Below, piece by piece: positions 5,922 to 64,000 of a DNA stretch of 64,000 nt. The translations under genes were made by a program, and so were the position numbers. Location of the stretch: the NCBI GenBank assembly GCA_009785425.1, contig WQWI01000001.1, positions 62,001 through 126,000 of the forward strand. Reading direction: 5' to 3'. This DNA comes from Bacteroidales bacterium. Its GTDB lineage: Bacteria > Bacteroidota > Bacteroidia > Bacteroidales > P3. Below the pieces are notes generated by a model. The model saw nothing but the letters and a program-made list of their open reading frames with translations, was not told the origin of the DNA and searched no databases. The stretch's first letter is position 1. Every line of letters begins with the position of its first letter.

Positions 5922-6059
5922 CATGTTATTGACCTTTCGCAGTGCAAAGACTTTTTGTCATTAAAAATGTTTGTGGTGTCTTTGCAAACGACATTTTGTC
6001 CCGATTTGCAGTTCGGAATAAAATTTGTGGGAACATTCGTAGAAAAAGGAGAAAAAGTT

Positions 6060-15024: not shown

Positions 15025-15912
15025 CTACTGAACACACCGCAATGAAAAACCATTAAACTTACTACCCCAATGCTGTGGATTGATAGTCCCAGTTGAAGAA
15101 AAACGTAAGAGAAATCCGCCGTCTGCGGAATCCCCCGACTGCGACCAGTAGTACCCCCACGTGCCTTGACCGAACAACCCACCACTCGTATTGCAGGCAC
15201 CTCCAAAAGCACCGCCCCAAAGGGTAATATAGTTATTATTGACAAAAGTCGTATTTGTTCGAAACTGTCCGGTTCCGCCCATAGCAATATCCAAATCTCT
15301 AAAATCCTCCCTTGTGGGAACTCGCCAAGGATAGGGGCAAAGCTCCTCTCTCAACTCATACACTGCCTGCCAAGAAAACAAAACGCCTCTTTGATCGGGA
15401 TTTGAACGGCAATCAACGTTATAGCCGGCAGCTAATGACCAACCGCTGAAAGACGTTTTATTCCTACAGTCGTCCGTTTGCACAGCGTCAGACCAGATTT
15501 GAGTGATACTATCGTTTGAAATTTCCCAAGTACTACTCGTAACAAAACTTGCTCTACCAAGCCCTGTTTCCCAGCCTAACACAACCTCTACAACGCTTGT
15601 ATCCGAATGAGTACCATTTTCTGACATAGCGACAATAGCTGTCACACCCGTGTCAATTGCTACTACAACGCCATCGGTAACAGAAGCAATAGAAGCACTG
15701 TCGCTTGACCAAATCACATTTTGGTTAGTGGCATTTGCGGGCGAAATGGTTGCCCTCAAAGTCAAACTGTCGCCAATGGTTAATACGGCTATGGTTTGAT
15801 TGAGCCTTAAATCGTTAACCACAATACTGATGTCATCGTCGTTTCCGCAAGAAACAAAAACAAGGGAAAACGCAACAAGCATAGTCGTTAGGCGGAACAA
15901 ATATTTTTTCAT
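15025..15912 (-). CDS. Lipoprotein with Big_2-like domain and a single FISUMP-like Cys-rich module
   Basis: Lipobox MKKYLFRLTTMLVAFSLVFVSCGNDDD; Ig-like segment; WSDAVQ...VDCRSN...LFSWQ...ELCPYPWRVPTREDFRDLD...GFSLRCVQ. Confidence 0.75.
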   Translation of the reverse strand: MKKYLFRLTTMLVAFSLVFVSCGNDDDISIVVNDLRLNQTIAVLTIGDSLTLRATISPANATNQNVIWSSDSASIASVTDGVVVAIDTGVTAIVAMSENGTHSDTSVVEVVLGWETGLGRASFVTSSTWEISNDSITQIWSDAVQTDDCRNKTSFSGWSLAAGYNVDCRSNPDQRGVLFSWQAVYELREELCPYPWRVPTREDFRDLDIAMGGTGQFRTNTTFVNNNYITLWGGAFGGACNTSGGLFGQGTWGYYWSQSGDSADGGFLLRFSSTGTINPQHWGSKFNGFSLRCVQ

Positions 15913-15952
15913 AGACAGTTGTTTTTGGGTAGAATTATGTCTCAAAACTCGT

Positions 15953-26402: not shown

Positions 26403-26435
26403 ATCAATCGATTTTTGTGTTATTTTTTTCAACGG

Positions 26436-26613
26436 CAATAGCAAACAGATTCCTCGCTACACTTCGCTTCGCTCGGAATGACAGCATTGCCGAGAAGAAC
26501 AGCGAATAATTTTTGCTTGCGACAACGTCGCAAGCAAAAATTATTCTTCAGCTCCCCACTAAAAGGATGTCATCCCGAAAGAGCATAGCGACTGAGGGAT
26601 CTGTTTGCTATTG
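26436..26613. repeat. Nested composite inverted repeat between GH13 and Calx-beta genes
   Basis: Outer arms caatagcaaacagat...atctgtttgctattg; inner perfect hairpin aataatttttgcttgcgac-aac-gtcgcaagcaaaaattatt (26505-26545). Confidence 0.85.
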
Positions 26614-31125: not shown

Positions 31126-32250
31126 TTACTCTTTAATCCATCGCAAAACGACATCACCAACTCTCAACATGTATAATCCCGCAGGAAAATTTGATACATC
31201 AATCCTCGTTTCTTCGCCGGTTGTTCTAAACGTACCGACCAGTCGTCCCAACATATTGTAAATCGTAATCTCCGTTCCGATTGGTAGAGGCACACTGCCG
31301 TGCGTATCTGCAGACACAACCACATAGTTTGTCGCAGGGTTGGGAAACACCTGTAGTAGAGGTGCACGGTTGTGAGTCTCTACAATGTTTGTACTAGCTG
31401 TGACGGTAAAATCAACAACATCTAAAACTCTAAATCCAAAACGATTCATCGCAACAGCGGTAATCCAATTATTGCCTGGCTCTGTTGGCGTAAATTGTAT
31501 CGTTTCCGAAAATGTTGGATTGGCAATCGAAAATGTCCTTAGTAAAACATGGTTATGATAAACAGAAACCGAATCGGCGTAGTCTCCACTGATTCCGAAA
31601 GATGCTTGTACATTAGGATTTAGTGTGAGATTATTTTTTGAAATTGTAATGCTTGGTTCTACAATATCTCCGTGCACAATTCGAAACGTTGCAGATACCC
31701 ACTCTGTCGGCTCGGTTATTCCCGCTATGCCTGTTTCTTGATGCCGTTCTCCTATTTGCAGTTCGTAATCACCCTCGCCATTCCAAGTATCTGCTTCGGC
31801 AAGAATGTCGATACTGCTTGGTCTTCCAACTTCTTGGAGATACTGGTTAGACTGTCCCGGAATTCCTGAAACCCATTCCATCAAAAAGGGAGTCCATGCA
31901 GTGGTCTCACCTGTATTTACGTTACGTATTCGATAAAAAATTTTCTGTTTGTTGTTCAAGTCACCCGATCCCACAGACCTGAAAGAAACAATAGTCAAAG
32001 AAGTCGGTATGGCTAAGTCAACACCATCCAAAGAGGAAGACACGGCACTATTGAGAGATCCCGCACTTGGGTCCCAAATGGTTGTATTGATACGATACAG
32101 AGTTGTTCTTTCATTTACGGAAAGGTATACACCCGCTGGTCCGAACCAGCCTGTCTGCTGTGTGTACGAAGTGGTCGCGAATAAGACCGCAATCAAAACT
32201 AAGGTAGTTCTGGCTTTGCATTTCAAAAAGGTAGTCATAGTCTTTATCAA
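31126..32250 (-). CDS. T9SS type A sorting domain protein, otherwise unknown
   Basis: Signal peptide; C-terminal LLQVFPNPATNYVVVSADT...GLYMLRVGDVVLRWIKE; N-terminal half resembles the start of the upstream paralog (GWFGPAGVYLSVNERT vs GEGPAGVFLQVNATT). Confidence 0.72.
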   Translation of the reverse strand: MIKTMTTFLKCKARTTLVLIAVLFATTSYTQQTGWFGPAGVYLSVNERTTLYRINTTIWDPSAGSLNSAVSSSLDGVDLAIPTSLTIVSFRSVGSGDLNNKQKIFYRIRNVNTGETTAWTPFLMEWVSGIPGQSNQYLQEVGRPSSIDILAEADTWNGEGDYELQIGERHQETGIAGITEPTEWVSATFRIVHGDIVEPSITISKNNLTLNPNVQASFGISGDYADSVSVYHNHVLLRTFSIANPTFSETIQFTPTEPGNNWITAVAMNRFGFRVLDVVDFTVTASTNIVETHNRAPLLQVFPNPATNYVVVSADTHGSVPLPIGTEITIYNMLGRLVGTFRTTGEETRIDVSNFPAGLYMLRVGDVVLRWIKE

Positions 32251-46480: not shown

Positions 46481-49400
46481 TTACGGGTTCCGAACGCAGC
46501 GAAGTGCGAAGCCGTTGTATTTGCCGTAATAATCCTGTGGCCACACTTGTGCTTGATGGATACGCAGGAAATGGGCTCGCGAAGCAGAATGCAGCGTAGA
46601 AGACCAGTAGCGAGTTTCGGTGCTGGCAAGAGCTCCGGCATAACCTGTATAACGAGCTCCTCCCCAAATTCCGCCGATTTGCGGATTAGCAGTGCTGCCG
46701 ACAGTAGGCATAAAGGCACCGCTATTGTTGTGCGAAGTGCTATTTCCAATAGCAGGTAGTGTATAACCCAAATTTTGATGCAAAATAGCAAAATCATCGG
46801 TAGTAGGCACTCGCCAAGGATACGGACACAACTGACTTGCAAAACGCATCACAGCACACCACGAAAAGTGGTTACCCGTAAGATTGGTATAAGCCTGACG
46901 GCAATCGGCACGGTAGTCGCCCGTGCTTCCGCCATAGAACGTAGGTTTCTGACAGTTGGAAGCAAACACGTGCCCCGACCAAGTCTGTGCAGGTCTGTCA
47001 CCGGTGCCCGGAACGGTTGATGTTCCGATTTCGATGTTGGTATTGCCAATAGTTCCCCAGCTTACTGCTCCCATACCGGCACCAAAAGCCGGCGTGGCAT
47101 TGCTGCAACTTAGGAGTGGAGCTGCCGTATCCCGAACACAGCGCAGGGCGAATCCGAAATACTTACTGTTACTGCGCTCAGCCCACACATTATGCCCACC
47201 AAAATTCAGACAGCGTGCATTGATACCTGAGACCTCGGTAGACGACCAGTAGTACGAGCCCGCAGCCGTGAGATTATCGACGCGAGCGGTAAACCGAGCA
47301 CCATGCCAAGCTCCACCAATTTGAGGAGCAGCTGCTGAGCCGACTGTACCAATATAGGTGTTTGGTGTAAGGGGAACATGTGCTCCTTGAGCAGCAGGCA
47401 GTGAAAGACCTAAATTTTCATGTAATATGGCAAAATCTTCAGTAGTCGGCACTCGCCAAGGATACGGACAAAATTGATCTCTAAAACGCATCACAGCACA
47501 CCAAGAAAAGAAATCACCCGTCCGGCTCGTGGAACGGTTAGTGACACTAAACAACGTTTGACGACAGTCGGCATTCAAGTTATTTGATACACCGCCGTTG
47601 AATTGGTCATTTTCAGTTGCATCACCTTTGGCACAAGCCGTAGCAAATACAGCACCAGACCAAGTTTGCGAAGGTCTGCTATTGGTGCCCAGGACTGTTG
47701 TTGTCCCGCTTTCGATATTTGTATTTAAAACATTACCCCAAGTGATAGTACCAAGGCTGTCGCCCCAATTCGGAGTGTTGAAGTTGCAACCACGCATTCC
47801 CACAACAATAGTTCCTGTATCTGAGACAGGGTCACACAGGTCTCCAACGGTTGTTATTGTATAAGTAAAAATACCTATCTCTGTCGGAGTACCCGAAATC
47901 GTTACCGGTGTTGTTGTAAAACTTGATACTGTAATTCCGTCAGGCGGAGTGGTCGAATCTGCCGTGCCTGTCCAGGTTATCCTTACCGAGTCTGCGACGC
48001 CACCAAAAGCATAAACGATGTTTGTGATTGCGGCATCTACTGCAACGCTTTGGTTGATTGTACCTACTGCACTTGTACGTGTGAGGGTCTGTGAAACTAC
48101 CGTAATTGCTTGATTGAAATATGATGTAAGACCGGTTTGCATGTTGGTTATCGTAATTCGATAGGTTGTGGTTGTATCCGGTGCTTGAGGCAGGGTAAGC
48201 ACTTTCGAGGTTGCACCTGCAATATCGGTAATGGTACTACCAGTTACAATGCCCCATTGGATGTCCGGGTTTACACCATAATGGGTAAATGTCGGAGAAA
48301 TAATAAGCCCACCTGTAAATGGGAAACAAATTGTATCACCATACGGGTCAACAGTCTTATATCCCACCAACCGCGGTGGTAGCACCGTATGGCGAACACA
48401 GCGGAGGGCAAAACCCTCGCTTTTGAGCTCGCTACCTTGAGGGGTAACTTGCCCCGGATTAAAGTGCAGGGCACGTGCATTGGTAGCATCGATTCCGGTG
48501 GAAGACCAGTAGTGCGAATGCGCATTCTCGGCATGATCCGCAGAGCCTGTAAATCGGGCTCCACCCCAAGTGCCTCCACGGTTGTGCTCACTACCACCCC
48601 CCATGTAACTGTTGTTTCCAAAGGAACCGGTTGCACCCGGGGTAGGTAGTGTATAACCCAAATTTTGATGCAGGTTGGTAAAATCCTCGTCGGTTGGAAC
48701 TCGCCAAGGGTAAGGACACAACTGCTCGGAAAATCTCATAACCATGCACCACGAGAAAAAATTACCATCAAAGGTATTACCACCGGGCACATTGCGACAA
48801 TCGGCATTGAAGTCATCCGTAGTACCGCCATCGAACGTGGTTCTGTTATCACATTCGGTGGTTCGAACGGCATCCGACCAAACTTGGTTAGGTCTGTCAT
48901 CGGTGCCCGGAATAGTCCAAGTTTGGGTTGTTGCAAAATAAGGCGTACCCAGTTCGAATCCAAGCGGGTTTCCATTGCAACCTTGCATGCCTACTATGAT
49001 ATTTACCGTATCAGAAGCAGGTTCACAAGCATCTCCGATGGTTGTTATCACGAAAGTGTAGATACCAAACTGTGCAGGCGAAGTACCCGAAATAGTAATT
49101 GGGCTTGTTGTCAGGTCAGAAACCATGATTCCGTCAGGCGGAGTGAGTGAGTCTGCTGTTCCTATCCAAGTTATCATTACCGAATCGGCAACACCGCCGA
49201 AGGTATAAACAACATCCGTAATCGGAGCGTTAAGAGCAACATCTTGGAAGGCCGGACCTGCCGTGCGTGTGAGCATTTGCTCAATCACGGTAATCGTTAC
49301 TTCGAAGTATGAGGTAAGGTTGGTTTCCTGGTTGTGTACACTTAATCTGTATGTTGTGGTTACGGTTGGTACATCCGCCCCTGCAAGTGTGAGGATAGGT

Positions 49401-52400
49401 GTAGTTGCAATAACCGCCGGGTCGCCTACAATGCTCCACTGCAAGATTGGATTTGCACCCTCTTCTTCAAGTACGGCTTCGATGGTAATCGGACCTGCAT
49501 AGCCTTTACAGATGGTGTCGCTTGGAGAGACGATCATTTCTATCAACTCCGGTGGCATCACTGCTCTCTCGCCACGTACGCAACGGAGAGCAAAGCCTAC
49601 GTACTTTTCCCTGCTGTTTTGTGGCCACACCGTACTTCCGTTAAAGTCTAAGAAACGGGCTGTGTTAGGGTTGATCTCGGTAGATGACCAATAAGGCGAA
49701 GTAGACATTCCCGGGTTATGTGAAAAACCCACAAAGCGAGCACCACCCCATTTACCACCGACTTGCGGACTAACCGTTGTACCGGCAGTAGGCATATACG
49801 CGTAGTTGTTGTTGTGAGCAACACCCCAGCCTACATTTGGCAAATTAAATCCGAGATTTTGATGCAAGATCACAAAGTCCGCCATAGTTGGTACGCGCCA
49901 ATCTCCCGGACAAAGTACATCTGCAAAGCGCATAACGGCACACCACGAGAAGAGGTCACCGGTAATACCGGAATCTCTACCCTGAAGGTATGTATGTCGG
50001 GATTGACGACAGTCTGCATTGAAGTTACCGTTTGTTCCGCCATTAAATTCATTGGCGTTCCATTCATTGCCCTTAGCACACACCGTAGCGAATACAGCAC
50101 CCGACCAAACTTGACCCGGTCTGCCACCTGTGCCCGCAATTGTTGTAATTTCGTCTTCGATATTTGCATTGGACGTATTACCCCAAGTAATAATACCAAG
50201 GCTATCACCAAATTGCGGTGGGTTCAAGTTACATCCTCGCATGCCTACTCTGATTGTTTCCGTTAATGATGCGGACGAGCAGTGGTTGGCAAGTGTAGTA
50301 ATGGTATAGGTATAGAAGCCCTGCATTGTCGGGGTACCTTGAATGAGAATCGAGTCGTTTTGATGAGTTACGGTAATTCCTGCAGGAACTGTGTCTGCAT
50401 GTGCAGTACCTGTCCAGGTTACGGTAGCGCCTGTTGCAGATCCTCCAAGTCTGTAAACGATAAGTGTAATCGGAACACCCACAGCCACACTTTGGTTTTC
50501 GGTTGCCAGCGCACTCAAACGTGTAATGGTGTGCTCTTGGAGCACCGTAATTGTTTGGTCAAACTGTGCTGAAAGCCCACTTGTGGTGTTGGTTACGGTT
50601 ATTCTGTAAGTTGTGGTTACGGTTGGTATATCATTGCCCTGAAGAGTAAGGTTTTGCGACGTTGAGATCGTTGCACCGTCACCTACAATGCTCCATACGA
50701 AGGTTGGGTTATCACCCAGACCGACAAATTTTGGAGATATTACGACACTGTCTCCCATAAACGGGCTACAAATGGTATCTCCCGGATACACGTTTATGTC
50801 ACCAATCAGTTCCGGTGTCGTTATCGTATCCACAAGGATATTGCGCACACAGCGTACAGCAAATCCATTTCCTTTAGTACCTATGCGCTCGGGCCACACA
50901 TTACTCGCTGTGAAGTACAAGTTGTATGCTTCTGTAGCACTTGCCTCTGTGGATGACCAATAGTATGAATTTGCACCTGTAAGATTCTGCACGTGTCCTG
51001 TATATCTTGCACCTCTCCAATCACCTGCAAATTGAGGATATGTTGCAGAACCGGCACTACCCATATAGGTGTTTGCTATAAGCGAAACGCTCGCATTTGG
51101 CGCAGGCAGTGTTGGATAGCCCAGATTGAGGTGTAACTGTCTAAAATCTTCACTGGTTGGCACACGCCAAGGATAAGGACAAAGCGTATCGGCAAAGCGC
51201 ATCACAGCACACCACGAGAAGAAGTCGCCCATCTCGCTTGTGTTGCGATTTCTCACACTTGGTATGGATTGACGGCAGTCTGCATTGAAGTCGCCATCGA
51301 CTCCGGAGTTAAATCCGGATCCATTACCGGTACCACCTTTGTTACAAGATGAGGCAAACACCGTTCTCGACCAAACTTGATCCGGTCTGTCTCCTGTGCC
51401 CTCAATTATTGTTGCTCCGACTTCGATCTCCGTATTGGAATTATTACCCCAAGTGATTAGACCTAAATCGGTGTAATTTCCTCTTACCCAGCCCGGTGTG
51501 TCAAAATTACAACCGCGCATACCTACCACGATGGTTCCTGTATCGGAAACGGACGGACATGTGTTTGCAACAGTAGTAATTACATAGGTGTATATGCCTA
51601 CCTGTGTCGGTGCACCGGTAAATATAATCGAATCGTTGCGATGCGTTACCGTGATTCCGGCAGGCGGCAACGTATCGTATGCTGTTCCTATCCATGTTAC
51701 TGTAGCCTCTGTAGCAGAACCGCCAAGTTGGTAGACTATCGTGCTGATGGTCTCATCTACGGCAACACTTTGACTGACTGTAGCTACCGCACTTGTAAGC
51801 ACAAGTGTATGTGCAGGAAAGATCGAGATGGTTTGATCAAAATATGCGGTAAGACCGGTTTCCGGGTTGGTTACCGTGATTCGATAGGTTGTGGTTGTGT
51901 CCGGTATCGGTGTAATGGTGAGATTTTGTAAGGTATCGCCTACAAGATCAGCACCACCTGCAATACTCCATTGGAAGATCGGACTTGTACCTATGCCGGT
52001 AAATGTCGGAGAGATGACAATGGTGTCCGTAGGTGATGGGGTACAAATCGTGTCGCTTGGCGTAACGGACATGTCTCCAACCAATCCCGGAGGTAATACC
52101 GTATCGCGAACACAGCGTAGTGCCATGCCGACAGACTTAACGTTGTTGAACGCAGGCCACACAGTTGACCAAGTGTAATACAAGAAGAACGCATTCGCAT
52201 CACTATTCTCGGAAAACGACCAGTAGCGCGAATCCTGAACCTCAGGACTGCCTGCGAAGCCTGTAAAGCGAGCACCACCCCAACGGCTATTCGGTGAGTC
52301 GGCTGCATCATCGGCTATATAAGTCCAAGTATCCGGTGCCGATGTTATACCAAGAGAAACCCCTACATTTATTCCCGGAACAGTAGTCCAGCCCAAGTTC

Positions 52401-55400
52401 AAATGCAACTGAGCAAAATCCTCTCTTGTCGGCACACGCCAAGGCGCAGGACAAAGTGAATCCGCAAAACGCATCACAGCACACCAGGAGAAGTAATCAC
52501 CGGCAAAGTTAGTATTACCGTCGGAATTTCTACAGTCTGCATTGAAATTGCCCACAGCACCTCCGCCAAACGTCTCTCTTTCGGCACAAGCAACGGCAAC
52601 TACGACATCAGACCATTCTTGAGAGGCTGCACCGTTACTGACACTTGGAATAAGCCAAGTTTGACTCGTCGCAAAAGAGGCACCTAACAGAGTATCACCC
52701 CAACCGGGTGTAACATTGTTACAGCCTGTCATCATGACGGATGTTACTGTAAGCGTACCTCTAACTGTAGCTTCGTTGCAAGCCGTATCATGGTTGGTTG
52801 TAAAGATTTCGAAGATATACCTGCCTGCCAAAGTGGTTGCACCGCTGAGGGTGTGAGTTGCACCATTGTAGTTGAGACCTGTCGGCATGGCAACATCAAT
52901 CGTATCCAAGGTGAAAGCATCGCCTACACCCGGTATAGTATCAATTCTTTGCCAACGGATAGCTGTGGTTGTAGCCGTTCCTGAAGTTCTCAAATCAAAA
53001 GCAACGCTTACAGGGGCAATGATTTGACCACTGCCTACGGTTTGGTTTGCTGTTGCTGAATCTACTGTGAAGTCGATGATGTCGCATTCGTATTCTCTTA
53101 CGCATCTTACAGCGTGTCCGATGTCTCTTCTGCTACCGCCGTTCACCCATATGTTTCCGATGTTGAAACTCAAACGATGTGATTGGGTGCCGATCTGTGC
53201 AGTTCTGAATGATGACGACCAGTACGTAGAGGTTGACGAAATAATTGTCGTGTCTCCTCTACCTGTCCATCGTGCACCTTGCCACAGTCCTCCGATTTGC
53301 GGAAGTGCTGTAGTACCTGCCGTACCTATATAGGTTCCTGTCGGATTTATAGCAACAAGTTGACCTTCAGCCGGAGGCATAGGATGTCCAAAGTTTTGGT
53401 GCAAGATTTCAAAATCCAACCGCGATGGCACACGCCATGGATACGGACAAAGTTTATCACCATAACGTACTACGGCACACCATGAGAAGAAGTCTCCGGT
53501 GATACCGGCGCCTCTACCTTGCTGGTATGAGTGTAGGGATTGACGACAGTCTGCACTGAAACTACCGAAAACTCCTCCATCGAAATACGGGTCAGGATTC
53601 AGATCAACGGCGTTACCTTTTGCACAAGCTGTAGCAAATACTGCTGCCGACCAAACCTGTGTTGGTCTTCCGCCTGTTCCGTCTATCGTAACAATACCCG
53701 CTTCGATGTTTCTGTTGGTTGTGTTACCCCACGTGACTATTCCCAATCCGTCAGGTCCCCAACCCGGTACGTATGAATTACAGTTTGGACAGCTTAAAGA
53801 GCTTACGATTATCGTACCGCTGACTCTTGTTGTATCGCAACCTGAGCCGATAGTTGGGTCTGCTGTAAGGATTTCGTAGATGAAATGTCCCCATTCGATG
53901 GTTGCACCGGTTATTGTTCCGGCTACCAAATCAACTGTGATTCCTACCGGTGGGTTTGCCATCGCTACTGTATCCGTTCCGTCAAGGCTTACACGCCACC
54001 AATGTACGGCGAGAGTTGTAGCTGTACCCAATGTGGTTGTATCCAATTCAAATATGACTGAGAGTATTGAGTCTCCGTTGCAAACTGCTTGGTGCAGTGT
54101 GCCCGCTTCGCTTATGATGTTGATTGCATCACAATCGGATGGTCTTACGCAACGTAGAGCAGCACCAAAATTCTTTGGTCCTGTTGCGTGAGGTTGCACT
54201 GAAGACGCAGTGAAAGCCAAGGCAAGCGCCTGCGCAGGATCAAATTCTGAAGCCGACCAGTATGCCGAGCTATGATAGTCAAGTATCGCTGTATGAGCTG
54301 TCCATCGTGCACCTCCCCAAGGGCTGTTTGGAGCATTAACAGCATTGTAAGCCGTATAATTCCAAGTGCTTGAAGCCGTATCTATGTTGTGGAACACCGA
54401 GTTGTTTACTGCCGGAATAGTGCTAAATCCGAGGCTCAAATGCAAGCGAGCGAAGTCTGCCGAATCCGGCACACGCCAAGGCGAAGGACAAAGCACATCT
54501 GCAAATCTCATGACCATACACCACGAGAAGTAGGTGCCTTGGAATCCGTTAGTTGCATTTCTACAGTCTGCGTTGAAGTTTGCTGCTACTCCGCCATCGA
54601 AGTTATCGGCTCTTACTTGGCACGCCGGAACTCTTACTGCATCCGACCACGTTTGCGGTCCGACCGTCCACTCTTGTGGAGTGACAAAGAACGCCGTATC
54701 CAATACGATCGGAAGCGGGTCGTTGTTACAACCGCGCATGCCCACCATAATAGTTCCCGTATCGGAAGCAGGTGTACACAGGAGGTTTCCAACGGTTGTT
54801 ATGATGTAGGTATAAACGCCGATTGTTGTCGGAGTACCCGAAATTGTAAGCGTTGGCATCACAAATGAAACTGTAATCCCCTCAGGTGGGGTGTCTGCAT
54901 CTGCTGTCCCTGTCCAAGCTATTGTTACCGAATCGGCAGAGCCACCAAGCGTATAAACGATATCCACAATAGTGGAGTCTACACCAACATTTTGGAAGTT
55001 TGTATCTACCGCACCTGTGAGCTCAAGTGTGTGAGGCTGAACAATGGTAACGATACTACTATCCTGAGTTCCCCAACAGCCTTCTGCAGAGCGTACACGG
55101 TAGAAATAGGTTCCATCAGCGGTTACCGTATCTAATGAAGATGGTCTTGTTATGCTTGTTCCGTTGCTTGTCGTTCCTTGCCAGAAAATTGTGTCGCCGG
55201 TTGCGAGTGTCGCTGAAGCTGTCAAGATGGTAAATCCGCATTCAGGAGTTGCATCAACGGTCACAGTTTGAGGTAGCGCATGAATGGTAATTGATCCCGT
55301 GAGGATTGCCGGAGAACATACTCCATCCGTGGGCGTTGTCGTAATCGTGAAATCATAAACTCCCGGTGCTGCTGTTAGTGCAACAGTTCCGACAATCGAG

Positions 55401-58400
55401 TCTGCCGTTGCATCAAGTCCTTCAGGAGCACTTGTTGTACCACTCGGACCTGTCCAAGTAATTGTAGCGCCTGTTGCTTCACCCGAGAAATAAAAACGAA
55501 TTGGATCTATCGGAGCACCTTGACACAGCCCTTGGTTGGTATCTCCACCCTGGACTGTGATATTGTGTGAAGGAATCACAGCTGCCACTACCGCTGATCT
55601 TGCTACAGACACACAGAAACCGTTGTAGGCTTCAGCCCAGAATGTAGTTGTGTCTGTAATGTTCGGTGTAGTCCAATTTGCACCTGAAACAGTGGTTCCT
55701 ACCGGTGTTCCGCCTGTTTCGACATCAAACCAACGAACTTGCAGTCCTGCAGGACTTGTTATTGCAGAGAGAACTACCGTTCCCTCCGAACAACGCACGC
55801 TGTCCGTAACATCGGCTATCGTAGGTACTGTAAGAACAACAACACTAACTGTATCGCTATACATTGGCGGACAAACGGCGTTTGGTCTCGAAATCACAAC
55901 TCTATACCAAAGGTCAGAAGCAGCACTGTTCGGTACGGTATGACTGCTTAAAGTTGCACCACCGATATTGTTGAACGTAATTCTATCGTCAGAGTACTGC
56001 CACTGGTACGTATGTGCCGGTGTTGAGGATGTCACCGTTACGGAAAGTACAACCGCTGTATCGCCAATACAAATCGTGTCGCCGGTAGGTTGCGTTGTAA
56101 TGACAGCGTCATTAATAACTGTAATGATTTGGTCGAAATAGTCTGTACAGCCCGTTTCGTTGTTGGTTACCGTAATTCGGTATGTTGTGGTTACGGTTGG
56201 AATGTCTGAACCTGTCAAGGTCAGAACGGTATCTGTCGCACCTAAAATATCTCCGGTGCCTACAATACTCCACTGAATGGTTGGGCTTGCACCCAAATTC
56301 GTGAATGATGAAGTAATAACGATATTTCCGGTTCCAAATGGGTTGCAAATCGTATCGTTGGGTGTTACTGTCATTGTGCCGGTCAATACCGGTGCACCGC
56401 TTATGCCCGGAACAGTTACAGTGTCGGAACTTATACAGCCGGCCGGACTTCTGAGGAACATCGTTTGTAGTCCGGTTGGAACATTTGTGAACGTTCGAAT
56501 CGAATCAAAATTAATGCCGTCTATCGAGTATTGTATACCGGTGCCTGCATCGGCAATTACAATAATACCGTTTGGATTAGTACCCGAGCAATCGGAGTTT
56601 CCGGTAACGCTTTCAGCCGTTGGCATTGGTGGAAGGCTGTTAACATTAACGGTGATCACGTTCGAGGCTGTATCTCCGCAGTCGCTCAAGCGCATTCTGC
56701 GGAACCAGGTTGTATCTGTTAATGCTCCGGGTTGGAAGGTCGGATCGTTTGCAAGCGGAATATCGCTCCAAGCGACACTATCCGTTGATATTTGCCATTG
56801 ATAAGCATCAACAGCAGGATTTCCGCCGGTTGCAGAAGTTACGTTCGTAAACTCAGCAGGAATATCGCCATGGCAAATATCCAAAATTGTGCCCTCTGCT
56901 GAGCCAATAACTCCCGGCGTAACGGCATCAAAAACGGTGATTGTTCCGCTTGCCGTCAAACAGCTTGTGTCGGTCATTGCGTGGATTTGGTAGATAAACA
57001 CAGCCGAAGAGCTATCTGTAAAGGTACCGCTAATCGTGAGTTCTGTAGGTGTGATTGCGAAAGTTATTCCTGCAGGAGGCGCAATTTGTGTAGTATCGCC
57101 GCCTGCTACTATGAACCAGCTGATGCCTGCGGATGTAATGCCTGTTGCATTGTAAACAATGTCTGTTATGGTAAGTGTTCCGCAAAGCATTTGGTTGGTT
57201 GTTGTATCGTGACTTGTCAACGGTAGGTTTGTACACGGTATTGTGTCGTCTGTTGCATTTCTTACACAGCGTAGAGCGTGGCCGATAGCTTTTTCGTGCG
57301 AACCATGTGGACCTACGAGGAACTCATGCAAGGTCAGGGCACGGGCAAGTGCCGGATCGTCCTCGGTAGACGACCAGTAGAACGTACTCTCAACATCCTG
57401 AAGGACGCTACTTCCGGTAAATCGCGAGCCCCCCCAGAGACCACCATTAGCACCGAAAGTAGTACCGATGTACCATGCAACGTCGTCAACATAAGCCGGT
57501 CCTATACGGGTCGTGCCATCACCGCCTAAGGCAATATCCAAATTAACAAAATCTTGAGTCGAAGGAACTCTCCAAGGATACGGACAAAGTTCATTCGCAA
57601 AACGCATTACAGCACACCACGAGAAGTAGTGTCCGCTGAAATTAGGATTATTAACAGAATTGCGACAATCTGCATTGAAATTGCTGTTTAGAGGAGTAGC
57701 CCAATCTGCGGCTCCACCGTCAAACTCGGTAGTTCTGTCCTCGCAAGCCGTAGCTACCACAGCATCCGACCATAGTTGCGTACCAACAGTCCATGTTTGG
57801 GTGGTAGCAAAAGATGCTCCCAAAGGACCTGCTCCCCAACCCGGAATGTCACTATTACAATTCGTCATTGGAACAGTTGTAACGGTGAGTGTACCTCTGA
57901 TAGTAGCCTCGCCACATTCCACAGTATGACCTGTTGTAAAGATTTCGAAGATGAAGCTTCCGGAAACGGTTGTAGAGCCTCTGATGGTATCATTAAGGAA
58001 TGTAATTCCTGTCGGAGCAGAGATAACAGTGGTGGTATCCGTGCTGCTAAACCAGCGGATACCAAGCCCTGTGGCTGAACCTGTAGTGTTCGTATCTAAC
58101 TCAACTGCAATCGGAGCAATGATTTGACCACTACCAACAGTTTGGTTTGCCGTAGCCGAATCTACTGTGAAGTGGATGATATCGCAGTCGTACATACGAA
58201 CGCAGCGAAGGGCAAAACCGTGAGGTTTAACCTGGTCGCCCTGAGGCAACACTCTATTCGCATAGAAGGTCAGACCGCGTGCATGGGTACCGGAGACCTC
58301 TGTAGACGACCAGTAGAACGAATACGTAGTTGCGAGATTGCCTGCATGACCGGTCCATCGAGCACCACCCCAAGTACCGTCTATCTCAGGAGCAGCAGTC

Positions 58401-61400
58401 GTACCGGCTGTACCCGTGTAAGTATAGGCTATAAAGGGAACAAGAGTACCCGGAGCAGGTAGTGTGTAACCAAGGTTTTGATGCAAGATAGCAAAATCCT
58501 CAGTAGTTGGTACTCGCCAAGGATAAGGACAAAGCGAATCAGCAAAACGCATCACAGCACACCATGAAAAGAAATCACCCGTCTGACTCGTAGAACGATC
58601 ATTAAAACTACCCAACGACCGACGACAATCAGCATTGAGATTACCAAGTGTTCCGGCGTTAAAAGCATCATTAGCAATTGTATTGTCATTGCCTTTGTCA
58701 CAAGCTTCAGCAAATACAGCTCCCGACCAAATTTGCGTCGGTCTGCCACCTGTGCCCTCAACCATACTTGTTCCGGCTTCAATGTTTGTGTTGTTGATAT
58801 CACCCCAAGTGATAGTACCAAAGCTGTTGCCCCAACCGGGTGTGCTGCTGTTACAATTCGTTGTTGGAATGGTTGTCACCGTAAGCGTACCTCTGATAGT
58901 AGCTTCGTTACAAGCTGTATCGTGGTTGGTTGTAAAGATTTCGAAGATATATCTGCCAGGAATAGCGGTAGCACCGCTAAGGGTGTGAGTTGTGCCATTG
59001 TAGTTGAGACCTGTCGGCATAGCAACATCAACCGTATCCAAATCGCTATTGGCTAAGGTATCGATTCTTTGCCAACGGATATTTGTGGTTGTAGCTGTTC
59101 CCAAAGTTCCCGGAGCAAAATCAACGGTTACGGGAGCAATGATTTGACCACTACCGACGGTTTGGTTTGCAGTAGCAGAATCTACTGTGAAATAGAGCAT
59201 ATCGCATTCGTAGTCGCGAACACAGCGGAGCACAAATCCGGGACCCTTAGAGAAATGGCTCCCAACCCACACAGAATTCGGACTGAGCAACACGGTATAT
59301 GCAAAAGTAGCTAAGGTCCGGCTAACAGTAGAAGACCAATAGCGCGTCGACTCATTCTCGAGAATGACTGTCGAGCCCGTAAACCGAACACCACCCCAAA
59401 TACCACCAACTTCAGGAGCTGTACTTGTGCCTGTAGTACCAAAGTAGGTATCTGCTATAAGAGGAATAGGAGTTACACCTGATATAGTTGTATAGCCCAA
59501 ATTAAAATGCAATATCTCAAAATCCTCAAGAGTCGGAACTCGCCAACCGTCCGGACAAAGCACATCCGCAAAACGCATTACAGCACACCAAGAGAACAGG
59601 TCTCCCGTCGGACTCGTACTGCGGTCAGTGAAACTAAACAACGTCTGACGACAGTCAGCATTGAAACCGCCTGCTGAACTGCTATCGAATTCGTTATTGT
59701 TGGTATCATTTCCTTTGGCACAAGCCGTAGCAAATACTGCACCCGACCAAATCTGTGTTGGTCTGCCGCCAAAGCCCTCAACCATGGTTGCACCGCTATC
59801 AATAACCGTGTTCGAAACACTACCCCAGCTGATCGTGCCTAAGCCATCGGCTCCCCAACCCGGAAGAGCATTGTTACAGTTTGGACATGGAAGAAGAGCT
59901 ACGTTGATCGTTCCTCTTACGCTTACTGTGTCGCAAGTTGCTGCCGGGTCTGTTGTAAAGACTTCAAAAATGAAGTGTCCGACTTCAGTGGTAGAACCGC
60001 TGATGGTGAACGTTGCAGCATCAAAATCAAACCCTGTCGGCATGGCAATACTTGTAGTATCGGTGCCATCAACGCTGAACCAGCGAATGCCAAGAGCTGT
60101 AGCTGCACCCAACGTGGTTGTATCTAATTCAAACGTAATCGGAACAATGTCTTGATCGTTACAAACAAACTGGTTTGTTGTTCCGGCTGCACTTGTTAAG
60201 TTTAATATATCGCAGTCGTACTTGCGAATACAGCGGAGTGCCAAACCGGCACTTTTATTGTTCCATGCCGTAGGCCACACATTCGTTGCATTGAAGAGCA
60301 GACGGTGTGCATTGACAGCGGTCATTTCGGTAGATGACCAGTACCACGAATTGTCACTCGTAGGTTGGGATGAAATACCGGTAAAACGGGCACCACCCCA
60401 AATACCACCAACTTCAGGACTACTACCTGTACCTGTAGCAGGCATATAATGTTCTGCATTACCATGCTCAACCATGTCCCCTAAGGTGAACCCTAAATTT
60501 TGATGCAATATCGCAAAATCTTCAGTCGTTGGAACACGCCAAGGATAAGGGCAAAGCGAATCCCCAAAACGCATAACGGCACACCATGAGAAGAAATCTC
60601 CGGTGAGACCGGTATGAGCAGAACGACAGTCGGCATTGAAATCGCCTGTAGTTCCGCCATCAAAAGTAGTTTTTTGACAGGCCGTAGCAAACACTGCGCC
60701 CGACCAAACCTGCGTTGGTCTGCCGCCGGTGCCCCTAACCAGACTAGTTCCGGTTTCAATATCCGTGTTACCAATAGTACCCCAAGAAATGGTTCCAAGA
60801 GTATCGCCCCAGCCCGGAGTGTCCAGGTTACAGTTTAGGGCTAAAATATCGCACTCTTCTACCGTTAGTCTTGCAATACGTCCGCTTGCCGTCAAACAGC
60901 TTGTGTCGGTCATTGCATGGACTTGGTAGATAAACACGGCTGAAGTGGTGTCTGTAAACGTACCGCTAATCGTGAGTTCTGTAGGTGTGATTGCGAAAGT
61001 TATTCCTGCAGGAGGTGCAACTTGTGTAGTGTCGTCGCCTGCTACTACGAACCAGCTGATACCTGCGGATGTAATGCCTTCTGCATCATAAACAATGTCT
61101 ACTATGGTAAAGGTTCCGCAAAGGGTTTGGTTAGCCGTTGTATCATGGCTGGTCAACTGTATGGTGTCGCATGTTATTGGGTCTTCTGTGCTTCTTATGC
61201 AGCGGAGTGGAAAGCCCATGGACTTAGGTCCGTTTAATTGTGGGAACACTACCAGTGTGGCTCCTCCATGGTTTTCTGCAAAATGTAGTAGACGCGCCTG
61301 TGCCTGGTTTATATTTGTTGACGACCAATAGTTCGAACCCATAGCTGTTTGATTTGTAGCATGTCCTGAGAATCGTGCTCCACCCCATATTCCTCCGTTA

Positions 61401-64000
61401 GGATCTGGTGTAGTACCCATGTATGTTTCTTGTATTCTTGTTGACGTGAAACCTGAGCCAAGTGCCGGCAAGCTAAATCCAAAACTTTGGTGCAATGCAG
61501 CAAAATCTTCAGTTGTCGGTACTCTCCACGGTGCCGGGCATAGTACATCTGCGAATCTCATTACCATACACCATGTGAAGAAGTGCCCGCTAAAGTTAGG
61601 ATTATCTATTGAGCTTCTGCAGTCTGCGTTGAAGCCGGGTGGGTCAGTTCCACCGTCAAATGCAGTATCTCTGAGTTCACAACCCGGAGCTCTTACGGCA
61701 TCCGACCAAAGTTGTTCACCAACCTGCCACGTTTGGTTTGTAGCAAAATAAGGCGTACCAAGTTCAAACGGAAGTGGAGTATTGTTACAACCCGGACATG
61801 GTAGGAGAGCTACGTTGATGCTTCCTGTTACTCTTGCTGTGTCGCAAGTAGCTGCATGGTCTGTTGTAAAGATTTCGAAAATGAAGCTTCCTGCTTGAGT
61901 AGGTGTACCGCTGATGGTTATGGTTGCAGCATCAAAAGCAAGTCCTGTCGGAGCAGAAGCAAGTAGTGTAGTATCGGTAGCATCAGCACTTACGCTGTAC
62001 CAGCGGATGCCAAGGGCTGCAGCTGTGGCTGAACCCAAAGTTCCGGCAACGAAATCAAACGTAATCGGAAGTATGTCTTGACCACTGCAAACAAACTGGT
62101 CTGCTGTGCCTGAATCGCTAACGAGGTGGAGTATATCGCAGTCGTAGTCGCGAACACAGCGGAGTACACGTCCAAGACTTTTCAAACGTAGATTGTTCAT
62201 AGCTAAACTGTTAAGATTGATGCTTCCTGGTAGGTTTAGAGCTAATGCGTGTGCATGCTCGTCACTATATGTTACTGATGTCCAGTATCTTGTAGCGTCT
62301 TCATTTAGGTTTGCAGATGATCCCGTCCATCGGGTTCCACCCCAAATTCCTCCTGTTTGAGGAGCGTTAGCATTGCCTAAATTGCCAACATACAAATCAC
62401 TTACTTCTTGAGCTGATATGCGATTTTGTCCTGTACCACCCATGTTCATATCCAAATCAACAAAATCCAATTCTGTCGGCACCCGCCAAGGATAGGGGCA
62501 AAGCTGATCAGCAAAACGCATCACAGCACACCAAGAGAAGAAGTCTCCTGTAACGCTTGTGGAGCGATTATTGAAACTGGCCAATGTTTGACGACAATCC
62601 GCATTGAAGTTGCCTGCTGTTCCGCCATCAAATTCATCATTATCGGTATCATTACCTTTTGCGCAAGCTGTGGCAAACACAGCACCCGACCAAACCTGTG
62701 GAGGTCTGTTACCGGTGCCCGGAATGAAAGTTGTTCCGGTTTCAATGTCCGTATTGGCAACAGTACCCCAAGAGATAGTTCCAAGGGTATCGCCCCAGCC
62801 CGGTGTGTTTAGGTTACAACCACGCATGCCCACCATAATAGTTCCCGTATCGGAAACAGGTGTACACAGGAGGTTTCCAACGGTTGTTATGATGTAGGTA
62901 TAAATGCCTACTGTTGTAGGAGTACCCGAAATCGTAAGCGTTGGCATCGCAAATGAAACCGTAATCCCCTCAGGTGGGGTGTCAGCATCTGCTGTACCTG
63001 TCCAAGCTATCGTTACCGAATCGGCAGAGCCACCAAGCGTATAAACGATATTCACAAGAGTGGAATCTACACCAACATTTTGGAAGTCTGTGCCTACCGC
63101 ACTTGTAAGTTCAAGTGTGTGAGGCGGAACAATGGTAACGATATAACTGCCCTGCGTTCCCCAACAGCCTTCTGCAGAGCGTACACGGTAGAAATAGGTT
63201 CCGTCAGCGGTTACGGTATCTAATATAGATGGTCTTGCTGTGCTTGTTCCTTCGTTTGTTGTTCCTTGCCAGAAAATTGTGTCGCCTGTTGCGAGTGTCG
63301 CCGAAGCCGTCAAAATAGTAAATCCGCATTCAGGAGTTGCGTTGACGGTTACAGCTTGAGGTAGCGCATGAACGGTAACGGTGATCATGTTTGAAGCCGT
63401 ATCGCCACAAGCATTCAAGTGCATTCTTCGGAAATGTGTTGTCGTTGTTAGCGCTCCTGCTTGGAAAGTCGGACTGTTGGCAGATGAGATGTTATTCCAA
63501 ATTATAGTGTCGGTCGACATTTGCCATTGGTAAACATCCACTGCAGGATTTCCGCCGGTTGCAGAAGTTACGTTTGTAAATTCAGCAGGAGTATCTCCGT
63601 GGCAAATGCTCTGATTTGCACCGATAACTCCAGGCGTAACAGTAGCAAGAACGGTGACTACAATCACGTTCGAAGACACTACTCCACAGTCACTAACAAA
63701 ATTTCTTCTGAACTGCGTTGTTTGCGTCAACGCCCCTGCTTGTAAAGTTGCAGAGTCTGCGCCTGTAATATCAGTGAATGTCGCTCCTGCATCTATAGAT
63801 AGTTGCCACTGATAAGTAGCCCCTGCTGCGCCACCACCACCGGAAACTACCGAAGTAAACGCCACCGGAATAGAGTCTCGACAAATTGTTTGGTCAGTTC
63901 CGATTTCACCTGCGATAAGCGTATCGAAGACAGTGACTGTGATTACGTTGGAAGACACTGTTCCGCAGCTACTAACAAAATTTCTTCTGAACTGCGTTGT
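46481..64000 (-). CDS. Giant secreted/adhesin-like protein (more than 5,800 aa visible, start outside window) with 14 FISUMP-like Cys-rich modules and Ig/PKD-like spacers
   Basis: Continuous minus-strand frame; ORF-track start at 63958 is a GTG and the frame continues to the edge (...TTQFRRNFVSSCGTVSSNVITVTV). 14 copies of FNADCR...FFSWCAVMRFAD.LCPYPWRVPT.DF..L......YWSSTE......L.F...V.P.....K..GFALRCVR. Confidence 0.85.
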   Translation of the reverse strand, partial: TTQFRRNFVSSCGTVSSNVITVTVFDTLIAGEIGTDQTICRDSIPVAFTSVVSGGGGAAGATYQWQLSIDAGATFTDITGADSATLQAGALTQTTQFRRNFVSDCGVVSSNVIVVTVLATVTPGVIGANQSICHGDTPAEFTNVTSATGGNPAVDVYQWQMSTDTIIWNNISSANSPTFQAGALTTTTHFRRMHLNACGDTASNMITVTVHALPQAVTVNATPECGFTILTASATLATGDTIFWQGTTNEGTSTARPSILDTVTADGTYFYRVRSAEGCWGTQGSYIVTIVPPHTLELTSAVGTDFQNVGVDSTLVNIVYTLGGSADSVTIAWTGTADADTPPEGITVSFAMPTLTISGTPTTVGIYTYIITTVGNLLCTPVSDTGTIMVGMRGCNLNTPGWGDTLGTISWGTVANTDIETGTTFIPGTGNRPPQVWSGAVFATACAKGNDTDNDEFDGGTAGNFNADCRQTLASFNNRSTSVTGDFFSWCAVMRFADQLCPYPWRVPTELDFVDLDMNMGGTGQNRISAQEVSDLYVGNLGNANAPQTGGIWGGTRWTGSSANLNEDATRYWTSVTYSDEHAHALALNLPGSINLNSLAMNNLRLKSLGRVLRCVRDYDCDILHLVSDSGTADQFVCSGQDILPITFDFVAGTLGSATAAALGIRWYSVSADATDTTLLASAPTGLAFDAATITISGTPTQAGSFIFEIFTTDHAATCDTARVTGSINVALLPCPGCNNTPLPFELGTPYFATNQTWQVGEQLWSDAVRAPGCELRDTAFDGGTDPPGFNADCRSSIDNPNFSGHFFTWCMVMRFADVLCPAPWRVPTTEDFAALHQSFGFSLPALGSGFTSTRIQETYMGTTPDPNGGIWGGARFSGHATNQTAMGSNYWSSTNINQAQARLLHFAENHGGATLVVFPQLNGPKSMGFPLRCIRSTEDPITCDTIQLTSHDTTANQTLCGTFTIVDIVYDAEGITSAGISWFVVAGDDTTQVAPPAGITFAITPTELTISGTFTDTTSAVFIYQVHAMTDTSCLTASGRIARLTVEECDILALNCNLDTPGWGDTLGTISWGTIGNTDIETGTSLVRGTGGRPTQVWSGAVFATACQKTTFDGGTTGDFNADCRSAHTGLTGDFFSWCAVMRFGDSLCPYPWRVPTTEDFAILHQNLGFTLGDMVEHGNAEHYMPATGTGSSPEVGGIWGGARFTGISSQPTSDNSWYWSSTEMTAVNAHRLLFNATNVWPTAWNNKSAGLALRCIRKYDCDILNLTSAAGTTNQFVCNDQDIVPITFELDTTTLGAATALGIRWFSVDGTDTTSIAMPTGFDFDAATFTISGSTTEVGHFIFEVFTTDPAATCDTVSVRGTINVALLPCPNCNNALPGWGADGLGTISWGSVSNTVIDSGATMVEGFGGRPTQIWSGAVFATACAKGNDTNNNEFDSSSAGGFNADCRQTLFSFTDRSTSPTGDLFSWCAVMRFADVLCPDGWRVPTLEDFEILHFNLGYTTISGVTPIPLIADTYFGTTGTSTAPEVGGIWGGVRFTGSTVILENESTRYWSSTVSRTLATFAYTVLLSPNSVWVGSHFSKGPGFVLRCVRDYECDMLYFTVDSATANQTVGSGQIIAPVTVDFAPGTLGTATTTNIRWQRIDTLANSDLDTVDVAMPTGLNYNGTTHTLSGATAIPGRYIFEIFTTNHDTACNEATIRGTLTVTTIPTTNCNSSTPGWGNSFGTITWGDINNTNIEAGTSMVEGTGGRPTQIWSGAVFAEACDKGNDNTIANDAFNAGTLGNLNADCRRSLGSFNDRSTSQTGDFFSWCAVMRFADSLCPYPWRVPTTEDFAILHQNLGYTLPAPGTLVPFIAYTYTGTAGTTAAPEIDGTWGGARWTGHAGNLATTYSFYWSSTEVSGTHARGLTFYANRVLPQGDQVKPHGFALRCVRMYDCDIIHFTVDSATANQTVGSGQIIAPIAVELDTNTTGSATGLGIRWFSSTDTTTVISAPTGITFLNDTIRGSTTVSGSFIFEIFTTGHTVECGEATIRGTLTVTTVPMTNCNSDIPGWGAGPLGASFATTQTWTVGTQLWSDAVVATACEDRTTEFDGGAADWATPLNSNFNADCRNSVNNPNFSGHYFSWCAVMRFANELCPYPWRVPSTQDFVNLDIALGGDGTTRIGPAYVDDVAWYIGTTFGANGGLWGGSRFTGSSVLQDVESTFYWSSTEDDPALARALTLHEFLVGPHGSHEKAIGHALRCVRNATDDTIPCTNLPLTSHDTTTNQMLCGTLTITDIVYNATGITSAGISWFIVAGGDTTQIAPPAGITFAITPTELTISGTFTDSSSAVFIYQIHAMTDTSCLTASGTITVFDAVTPGVIGSAEGTILDICHGDIPAEFTNVTSATGGNPAVDAYQWQISTDSVAWSDIPLANDPTFQPGALTDTTWFRRMRLSDCGDTASNVITVNVNSLPPMPTAESVTGNSDCSGTNPNGIIVIADAGTGIQYSIDGINFDSIRTFTNVPTGLQTMFLRSPAGCISSDTVTVPGISGAPVLTGTMTVTPNDTICNPFGTGNIVITSSFTNLGASPTIQWSIVGTGDILGATDTVLTLTGSDIPTVTTTYRITVTNNETGCTDYFDQIITVINDAVITTQPTGDTICIGDTAVVLSVTVTSSTPAHTYQWQYSDDRITFNNIGGATLSSHTVPNSAASDLWYRVVISRPNAVCPPMYSDTVSVVVLTVPTIADVTDSVRCSEGTVVLSAITSPAGLQVRWFDVETGGTPVGTTVSGANWTTPNITDTTTFWAEAYNGFCVSVARSAVVAAVIPSHNITVQGGDTNQGLCQGAPIDPIRFYFSGEATGATITWTGPSGTTSAPEGLDATADSIVGTVALTAAPGVYDFTITTTPTDGVCSPAILTGSITIHALPQTVTVDATPECGFTILTASATLATGDTIFWQGTTSNGTSITRPSSLDTVTADGTYFYRVRSAEGCWGTQDSSIVTIVQPHTLELTGAVDTNFQNVGVDSTIVDIVYTLGGSADSVTIAWTGTADADTPPEGITVSFVMPTLTISGTPTTIGVYTYIITTVGNLLCTPASDTGTIMVGMRGCNNDPLPIVLDTAFFVTPQEWTVGPQTWSDAVRVPACQVRADNFDGGVAANFNADCRNATNGFQGTYFSWCMVMRFADVLCPSPWRVPDSADFARLHLSLGFSTIPAVNNSVFHNIDTASSTWNYTAYNAVNAPNSPWGGARWTAHTAILDYHSSAYWSASEFDPAQALALAFTASSVQPHATGPKNFGAALRCVRPSDCDAINIISEAGTLHQAVCNGDSILSVIFELDTTTLGTATTLAVHWWRVSLDGTDTVAMANPPVGITVDLVAGTITGATIEWGHFIYEILTADPTIGSGCDTTRVSGTIIVSSLSCPNCNSYVPGWGPDGLGIVTWGNTTNRNIEAGIVTIDGTGGRPTQVWSAAVFATACAKGNAVDLNPDPYFDGGVFGSFSADCRQSLHSYQQGRGAGITGDFFSWCAVVRYGDKLCPYPWRVPSRLDFEILHQNFGHPMPPAEGQLVAINPTGTYIGTAGTTALPQIGGLWQGARWTGRGDTTIISSTSTYWSSSFRTAQIGTQSHRLSFNIGNIWVNGGSRRDIGHAVRCVREYECDIIDFTVDSATANQTVGSGQIIAPVSVAFDLRTSGTATTTAIRWQRIDTIPGVGDAFTLDTIDVAMPTGLNYNGATHTLSGATTLAGRYIFEIFTTNHDTACNEATVRGTLTVTSVMMTGCNNVTPGWGDTLLGASFATSQTWLIPSVSNGAASQEWSDVVVAVACAERETFGGGAVGNFNADCRNSDGNTNFAGDYFSWCAVMRFADSLCPAPWRVPTREDFAQLHLNLGWTTVPGINVGVSLGITSAPDTWTYIADDAADSPNSRWGGARFTGFAGSPEVQDSRYWSFSENSDANAFFLYYTWSTVWPAFNNVKSVGMALRCVRDTVLPPGLVGDMSVTPSDTICTPSPTDTIVISPTFTGIGTSPIFQWSIAGGADLVGDTLQNLTITPIPDTTTTYRITVTNPETGLTAYFDQTISIFPAHTLVLTSAVATVSQSVAVDETISTIVYQLGGSATEATVTWIGTAYDTLPPAGITVTHRNDSIIFTGAPTQVGIYTYVITTVANTCPSVSDTGTIVVGMRGCNFDTPGWVRGNYTDLGLITWGNNSNTEIEVGATIIEGTGDRPDQVWSRTVFASSCNKGGTGNGSGFNSGVDGDFNADCRQSIPSVRNRNTSEMGDFFSWCAVMRFADTLCPYPWRVPTSEDFRQLHLNLGYPTLPAPNASVSLIANTYMGSAGSATYPQFAGDWRGARYTGHVQNLTGANSYYWSSTEASATEAYNLYFTASNVWPERIGTKGNGFAVRCVRNILVDTITTPELIGDINVYPGDTICSPFMGDSVVISPKFVGLGDNPTFVWSIVGDGATISTSQNLTLQGNDIPTVTTTYRITVTNTTSGLSAQFDQTITVLQEHTITRLSALATENQSVAVGVPITLIVYRLGGSATGATVTWTGTAHADTVPAGITVTHQNDSILIQGTPTMQGFYTYTITTLANHCSSASLTETIRVGMRGCNLNPPQFGDSLGIITWGNTSNANIEDEITTIAGTGGRPGQVWSGAVFATVCAKGNEWNANEFNGGTNGNFNADCRQSRHTYLQGRDSGITGDLFSWCAVMRFADVLCPGDWRVPTMADFVILHQNLGFNLPNVGWGVAHNNNYAYMPTAGTTVSPQVGGKWGGARFVGFSHNPGMSTSPYWSSTEINPNTARFLDFNGSTVWPQNSREKYVGFALRCVRGERAVMPPELIEMIVSPSDTICKGYAGPITIEAVLEEEGANPILQWSIVGDPAVIATTPILTLAGADVPTVTTTYRLSVHNQETNLTSYFEVTITVIEQMLTRTAGPAFQDVALNAPITDVVYTFGGVADSVMITWIGTADSLTPPDGIMVSDLTTSPITISGTSPAQFGIYTFVITTIGDACEPASDTVNIIVGMQGCNGNPLGFELGTPYFATTQTWTIPGTDDRPNQVWSDAVRTTECDNRTTFDGGTTDDFNADCRNVPGGNTFDGNFFSWCMVMRFSEQLCPYPWRVPTDEDFTNLHQNLGYTLPTPGATGSFGNNSYMGGGSEHNRGGTWGGARFTGSADHAENAHSHYWSSTGIDATNARALHFNPGQVTPQGSELKSEGFALRCVRHTVLPPRLVGYKTVDPYGDTICFPFTGGLIISPTFTHYGVNPDIQWGIVTGSTITDIAGATSKVLTLPQAPDTTTTYRITITNMQTGLTSYFNQAITVVSQTLTRTSAVGTINQSVAVDAAITNIVYAFGGVADSVRITWTGTADSTTPPDGITVSSFTTTPVTISGTPTEIGIFTYTITTVGDLCDPVSDTGTIVVGMRGCNFNTPNWGDSLGTITWGNVLNTNIESGTTTVLGTNSRPSQTWSGAVFATACAKGDATENDQFNGGVSNNLNADCRQTLFSVTNRSTSRTGDFFSWCAVMRFRDQFCPYPWRVPTTEDFAILHENLGLSLPAAQGAHVPLTPNTYIGTVGSAAAPQIGGAWHGARFTARVDNLTAAGSYYWSSTEVSGINARCLNFGGHNVWAERSNSKYFGFALRCVRDTAAPLLSCSNATPAFGAGMGAVSWGTIGNTNIEIGTSTVPGTGDRPAQTWSGHVFASNCQKPTFYGGSTGDYRADCRQAYTNLTGNHFSWCAVMRFASQLCPYPWRVPTTDDFAILHQNLGYTLPAIGNSTSHNNSGAFMPTVGSTANPQIGGIWGGARYTGYAGALASTETRYWSSTLHSASRAHFLRIHQAQVWPQDYYGKYNGFALRCVRNP
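54730..55290. repeat. Internal segmental duplication, copy 1 of pair with about 62820-63375
   Basis: cgcatgcccaccataatagttcccgtatcgga...gaggtagcgcatgaa, near-identical DNA in both places. Confidence 0.85.
62820..63375. repeat. Internal segmental duplication, copy 2
   Basis: See 54730-55290. Confidence 0.85.

Follow-up and report, generated by a model that had tools for sequence, protein, structure and literature searches.

A fourteen-module FISUMP protein of a Bacteroidales bacterium and DGR repeats in the arrays of a sister species

Known DGR targets and giant modular proteins

The Fib_succ_major (FISUMP) domain is a recorded target domain of diversity-generating retroelements (DGRs), known from the DGRs of the human microbiome (PMC4159848). 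In the proteins described there, the domain is present once, at the protein end, and the variable segment lies at the end of the domain. The presence of several variable repeats (VRs) in one ORF has also been reported earlier (PMC6642488). In Marichromatium purpuratum, an ORF of 3.4 kb carries three FGE-sulfatase paralogues in tandem and has three VRs; whether it is an artefact was left open by its authors (PMC3521204). The cyanobacterial CLec family comprises DGR targets plus paralogues of varying homology to the template, which are located in separate, dispersed genes (PMC7517822). A large survey has concluded that DGR VRs are nearly always C-terminal, and this was attributed to a required downstream DNA element (PMC8144416).

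Here, we describe a giant ORF in a stretch of 64,000 nucleotides from a Bacteroidales gut bacterium (the window) and compare it with the genomes of its relatives. The giant shares its Pfam domain with the human-microbiome proteins, its variable segments are likewise at the domain end, and adenine-biased pairs occur in its genus too. However, the arrays of the genus hold 6-14 modules instead of a single terminal one, and those of the sister species carry internal repeats. Like the Marichromatium ORF, the giant has several DGR-target domains per ORF, but the three domains of the former are of another target type, whereas the giant exceeds 18 kb and arrays are also found in other MAGs. The arrays resemble the CLec paralogues in combining DGR targets with paralogues of varying template homology; the FISUMP modules, in contrast, are strung in one polypeptide. 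FISUMP arrays of 6-14 modules, with DGR repeats on single modules, internal ones too, are new. The marks of DGR rewriting on single modules of the sister arrays suggest that such giants string together binding sites that were made to measure.

LapA-like giant Ig-rich adhesins are, as the giant, huge modular proteins that are probably exported. The giant differs from them in that its binding modules are FISUMP and no secretion or retention module of the LapA kind was identified in it.

Among the other FISUMP ORFs retrieved, most contain a single module, and no other such arrays were seen in 295 sampled genomes of the order, where up to 10 candidates were scored in each genome. A preliminary description of this DNA had called a multi-module FISUMP protein unusual, and these counts bear it out. 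The giant is probably an exported multivalent ligand-binding protein of a DGR-target family, with its 14 faces now fixed.

Modules and spacers of the giant ORF

The giant is encoded on the minus strand and is listed below from its N-terminal side, followed by a separate FISUMP gene of the window.

46481-64000, minus strand: giant ORF, 3' part (5,839 of at least 6,034 codons); the frame continues past the window edge and off the end of the contig, no start found
62819-64000, minus strand: Ig-like region on the N-terminal side, with weak matches to PKD_6, Fn3 and Ig_7; turns into a 279-bp tandem repeat past the window edge
62150-62818, minus strand: FISUMP module M01
61790-62149, minus strand: Ig-like spacer M01-M02, given as an example, He_PIG 29.7 bits (cut-off 24); aligned with six homologues
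61193-61789, minus strand: FISUMP module M02
60224-60832, minus strand: FISUMP module M03
59216-59878, minus strand: FISUMP module M04
58196-58855, minus strand: FISUMP module M05
57260-57859, minus strand: FISUMP module M06
54731-57259, minus strand: long Ig-like stretch M06-M07, 843 aa, two Ig_7 domains (60.7 bits, cut-off 27.3)
54143-54730, minus strand: FISUMP module M07
53096-53782, minus strand: FISUMP module M08
52106-52723, minus strand: FISUMP module M09
50843-51511, minus strand: FISUMP module M10, top TIGR02145 score (51.1 bits)
49574-50233, minus strand: FISUMP module M11
48392-48979, minus strand: FISUMP module M12
47132-47788, minus strand: FISUMP module M13
46490-47107, minus strand: FISUMP module M14, C-terminal; model pLDDT 90.4
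46490-46666, minus strand: M14 segment equivalent to DGR variable repeats, WGG...RCVR
15025-15945, minus strand: FISUMP gene apart from the giant, one module, lipobox-like N-terminus

A profile derived from the modules finds exactly 14 domains in the giant. TIGR02145 also matches it 14 times, with M10 over the cut-off and the other modules at 22-40 bits. Pfam Fib_succ_major (PF09603) reaches 338.7 bits in 12 stretches on a 4,839-aa part, well over the cut-off of 33.9, while the N-terminal part of the giant scores 32.1 bits, slightly below it. The count of 14 FISUMP modules given in the preliminary description is confirmed by the two 14-fold searches, and all 14 of its WRVP motifs are present, each displaced by 7-16 bases. 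The proposed spacing of mostly 0.95-1.27 kb holds in general; the actual range is wider, 642-3,096 bases, with two outliers: M13 and M14 are 642 apart, and the long Ig stretch sets M06 and M07 3,096 apart. The modules are 196-229 aa in length, and each of the 14 terminates in a segment of 177-195 bases that is like a DGR variable repeat. The spacers, which had been described as Ig/PKD-like, give Ig_7 and He_PIG matches above the cut-offs in a profile search, and the structure model of a spacer is all-beta (pLDDT 81.6).

Fold and export

The structure prediction of a single module, earlier proposed as a check, was carried out on M14 with AlphaFold2 and gave a model of pLDDT 90.4. When compared with the PDB by Foldseek, the matches of this model are weak, with E-values of 0.16 or worse, and are led by the C-type-lectin folds Lcl, Mtd variants, Dectin-1 and LOX-1; TaqVP is found further down the list. 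Against a viral library, there was one good match, a phage protein named as FISUMP. A sequence search of the PDB with the module profile gave no match. Going by the model, the FISUMP modules are probably of the C-type-lectin fold.

The stop of the giant lies two residues past its last module, M14. Por_Secre_tail, the T9SS sorting domain, has 31 matches in the genome, and none is in the giant among the matches listed. The surface fibre put forward in the preliminary description could not be substantiated; the giant is without its start and has no T9SS sorting domain after M14. As for export, a complete 9-module relative (4,279 aa) has at its N-terminus a stretch resembling a signal peptide, together with a DUF1565/beta-helix region, and the N-terminus of a complete 6-module relative (3,157 aa) is similar to it. 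Export of the giant is likely, judging from sequence, because the 9-module relative opens in this manner. T9SS sorting-domain matches are also present in four window ORFs (9177-10472, 23082-26444, 26642-31102 and 31126-32250); other large proteins are thus exported by that route.

Arrays and DGR repeats in the sister species

The relatives compared are Bacteroidales MAGs; we take them to originate from termite guts on the basis of their isolate names (Embiratermes, Labiotermes, Termes). The sister species (G001, records WQWA01, 91% complete) has arrays of 9 modules (contig C3, the complete relative mentioned above), at least 10 modules (C11) and 6 modules (C22), and the complete 6-module ORF belongs to another MAG. 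The C11 and C22 arrays both end at contig ends within FISUMP sequence, and they could be parts of a single gene. In a tree of the window and sister modules, three orthologous groups were found with UFBoot values of 93-100, for example M08 with C3 module 7 (UFBoot 100). The arrays are therefore older than the split of the species. A clade of M06, M07 and M09 together with those sister modules that carry variable repeats had a FastTree support of 0.91 and was set aside, as IQ-TREE did not recover it as such.

The DGR template of the sister (C20) encodes the module type of the giant. It is strongly matched by the C-terminal module of C22 (mismatches at 19/40 adenines and 6/136 non-adenines), by module 9 of C11 (17/40 and 9/136) and by module 3 of the 9 in C3 (20/40 and 16/135). 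These three are its only strong matches and every one of them is in a multi-module giant; by their match to the template outside adenines, the three arrays carry DGR variable repeats. The remaining array modules of the sister differ from the template at approximately 30-55% of the non-adenine positions. In G004 (records WRKV01), the genome's own DGR template pairs with a repeat on C176, with mismatches at 15/53 adenines and 3/139 non-adenines. Across the template/repeat pairs, the p values of the adenine bias (Fisher) range from 1e-6 to 7e-10. G004 has 63 FISUMP matches in its genome, mostly single-module genes, of which its template matches one.

Downstream of C3 module 3 there are 2,325 codons, and C11 module 9 is followed by at least 181 codons up to the contig end. 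At least one template-matched repeat of the sister, that of C3, is internal, and probably two are. Internal array modules with such a clear template match make the rule of the C-terminal VR (PMC8144416) testable.

Where C22 and C11 encode the same residue, their codons agree in 39/40 cases within the repeat as against 35/77 upstream, which implies that homogenisation ends at the template boundary; the other two pairs behave alike, less sharply. The identity of C22 and C11 also drops from 0.89 to 0.55 immediately upstream of the template start. In its 3' flank, C22 has the stretch TTCAGGAACTTT, which is common to templates, whereas C11 and C3 are without it and their coding sequence continues. 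Since the internal repeats of C11 and C3 do not have this common flank, they may have been acquired from another copy by gene conversion.

In the favoured reading, that of a ligand-binding protein with fixed faces, fourteen FISUMP modules would be mounted on a stalk of Ig-like units, and every module would have a hypervariable segment at its C-terminal end. The module family would have arisen as domains of DGR variable proteins were duplicated and shuffled. The DGR of the genus, consisting of a reverse transcriptase, an Avd-like protein and a template repeat, would copy the template, error-prone at adenines, into single array modules, the internal ones included. Modules drifting away from the template would then become fixed. 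We infer that the protein is exported, displayed on the surface and binds ligands with avidity, and that retrohoming acts directly on internal modules.

It may also be, and we put this forward tentatively, that the window protein is an archive, in which the DGR rewrites modules singly, internal ones included, without a downstream non-coding homing element, and the older modules keep past specificities. If it is true that the arrays retain past variants during the rewriting of one module, there would be a repertoire of binding sites in a single molecule.

An ordinary giant adhesin, changed by the usual mutation and selection, would need no DGR in the window gene, and the template-like segments of the sister repeats would have come from DGR target genes through gene conversion. 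The window modules, being without a template match, homogenisation or a clear NNY excess (see below), would suit such an origin, as would the internal sister repeats without the common 3' flank. We nevertheless hold it to be unlikely, as the strong matches of the sister template are confined to arrays and no single-module donor was seen in the genome at 91% completeness. Furthermore, each of the three sister repeats has private adenine mismatches, and the fall in C22-C11 identity occurs at the template start.

The sister also has a second DGR-type reverse transcriptase, on C32, the frame of which ends in an asparagine-rich RGGSWNNNAQNCRVSNRNNNIGFRLAL segment that is FGE-sulfatase-template-like. 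An FGE-sulfatase-like ORF is located near it.

The DGR of the own genome and the window modules

The genome that holds the window (G000) is a short-read MAG of 1.63 Mb in 49 contigs and is 71% complete. Its DGR was found by the TIGR02145 search, and template/repeat pairs were sought by searches and in single stretches. On contig C33 (locus 4895-7608), there is a FISUMP fragment, a 77-aa frame with the last third of the domain only, and a reverse transcriptase directly downstream. The template repeat spans C33:6236-6430, and its translation is asparagine-rich (AAY codons). The reverse transcriptase (325-aa ORF; RVT_1 55.3 bits) has the motif IGNLTSQ, fitting the (I/V/L)GxxxSQ described for DGR reverse transcriptases (PMC3521204). 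Compared with that of the sister, its frame is broken near the 3' end, which is either an assembly error or decay. An Avd-like protein is encoded upstream; its matches to DivGenRetAVD (38 bits, cut-off 80, E 1.6e-9) and bAvd (28.8 bits, cut-off 40, E 1.8e-6) are both below the cut-offs. Between the Avd-like gene and the template there is an ORF resembling an IS200-type transposase (C33 4895-5347). The template pairs with a variable repeat in a single-module FISUMP gene on C40, with mismatches at 23/50 adenines and 9/142 non-adenines (p 2e-9). A second reverse transcriptase of this genome (C8) has no FISUMP template within the locus read.

As a live repeat of this template, the single-module gene at 15025-15945 is ruled out by its mismatches at 30/50 adenines and 43/142 non-adenines. 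In the sister, a relative of this gene (55% identity, 187 aa) directly follows the stop codon of the giant (L107:13294-14055).

None of the templates identified matches a module of the window giant outside adenines. The C33 template gives no match in the giant, and the non-adenine mismatch of the modules with the sister's template is 0.35-0.44; by DNA comparison, live repeats of either template are ruled out. Searches with all 14 segments, over the assembled 71% of the genome, returned only the segments themselves and weak paralogues, and no hidden template. Homogenised segments are also rejected, as the trend runs the opposite way, the same-residue codons of the window modules agreeing at 0.41 in the segment and 0.50 upstream. 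A residual NNY signature of past rewriting was likewise sought, and there is no clear excess (70/100 against a background of 61%). The variety of residues, however, peaks at the columns that are AAY in the sister template (6.5 kinds of residue against 3.1; p 1.4e-4), a coincidence that loop exposure alone could cause. From these comparisons, the window giant appears to carry, at present, 14 fixed and mutually different binding faces.

The faces would not all be fixed if the giant were a live DGR target and the missing 29% of the genome held the template for one module. With an assembly only 71% complete, and one module per sister array matching the template, a single live module is easily missed. 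Against it, the C33 template is without a match in the giant, the sequence after M14 does not have the 3' flank seen behind templates and terminal repeats, and the sole DGR-type reverse transcriptase in the assembled genome is broken; we consider a live target quite unlikely.

Ligand binding or enzyme docking

FISUMP has been proposed to be an analogue of cohesins, and it is abundant both in Fibrobacteres that degrade fibre and in the guts of wood-feeding termites (PMC4704652, PMC3625147). The giant could accordingly be a scaffoldin analogue, with cohesin-like modules that collect the enzymes degrading plant polymers, and its numerous similar modules with spacers in between are reminiscent of a scaffoldin. 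However, dockerin matches were found in 0/5 genomes of the genus, a search that an unrecognised type of partner would escape. The DGR-type variable segments, along with the variety at the putative binding face, also suit many ligands better than one docking partner, and the scaffold has, in our estimate, little chance of being correct. With a ligand-binding giant, the poorly understood FISUMP domain would gain a testable function, that is, diversified ligand binding and not the docking of enzymes.

Extent and assembly of the giant ORF

The minus-strand frame from 64000 to 46481 has zero stops. Beyond the window edge, it extends for another 585 bases to the end of contig C1 (126,587 bases, the window being C1:62001-126000). 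The total open frame amounts to 6,034 codons, or at least 639 kDa, and is stop-free up to the contig end. Thus, the preliminary description was correct in regarding the giant as a single polypeptide, the frame of which is open at the right edge and longer still. Its megadalton scale is unproven, the mass in hand being a lower bound, and following the frame towards a start and signal peptide, a check proposed earlier, gave no start codon up to the end of C1. At this edge, the 5' side of the giant is interrupted inside a 279-bp tandem repeat encoding Ig-like units (3.2 copies, 90% matches); the start is likely missing because the contig breaks in these near-identical repeats.

The 14 window modules are only 36-62% identical in pairwise comparison, and the copies are therefore not made by the assembler. 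Both collapse and expansion of module copies are ruled out by this divergence, and an artefact is also made less likely by the similar arrays of two MAGs that were binned separately. That separate FISUMP genes were fused into a single ORF by assembly is hardly credible: the short-read origin of the MAG and the tandem repeats at the end of C1 would allow it, but the uninterrupted frame, the divergent modules, the complete arrays of the two other MAGs and the modules of the sister's array that are orthologous to those of the window all stand against it.

Opposite the giant, plus-strand ORFs are found at 48665-49150, 49763-50266, 54389-54868, 56277-56801 and 59661-60155, and these are most likely shadow ORFs.
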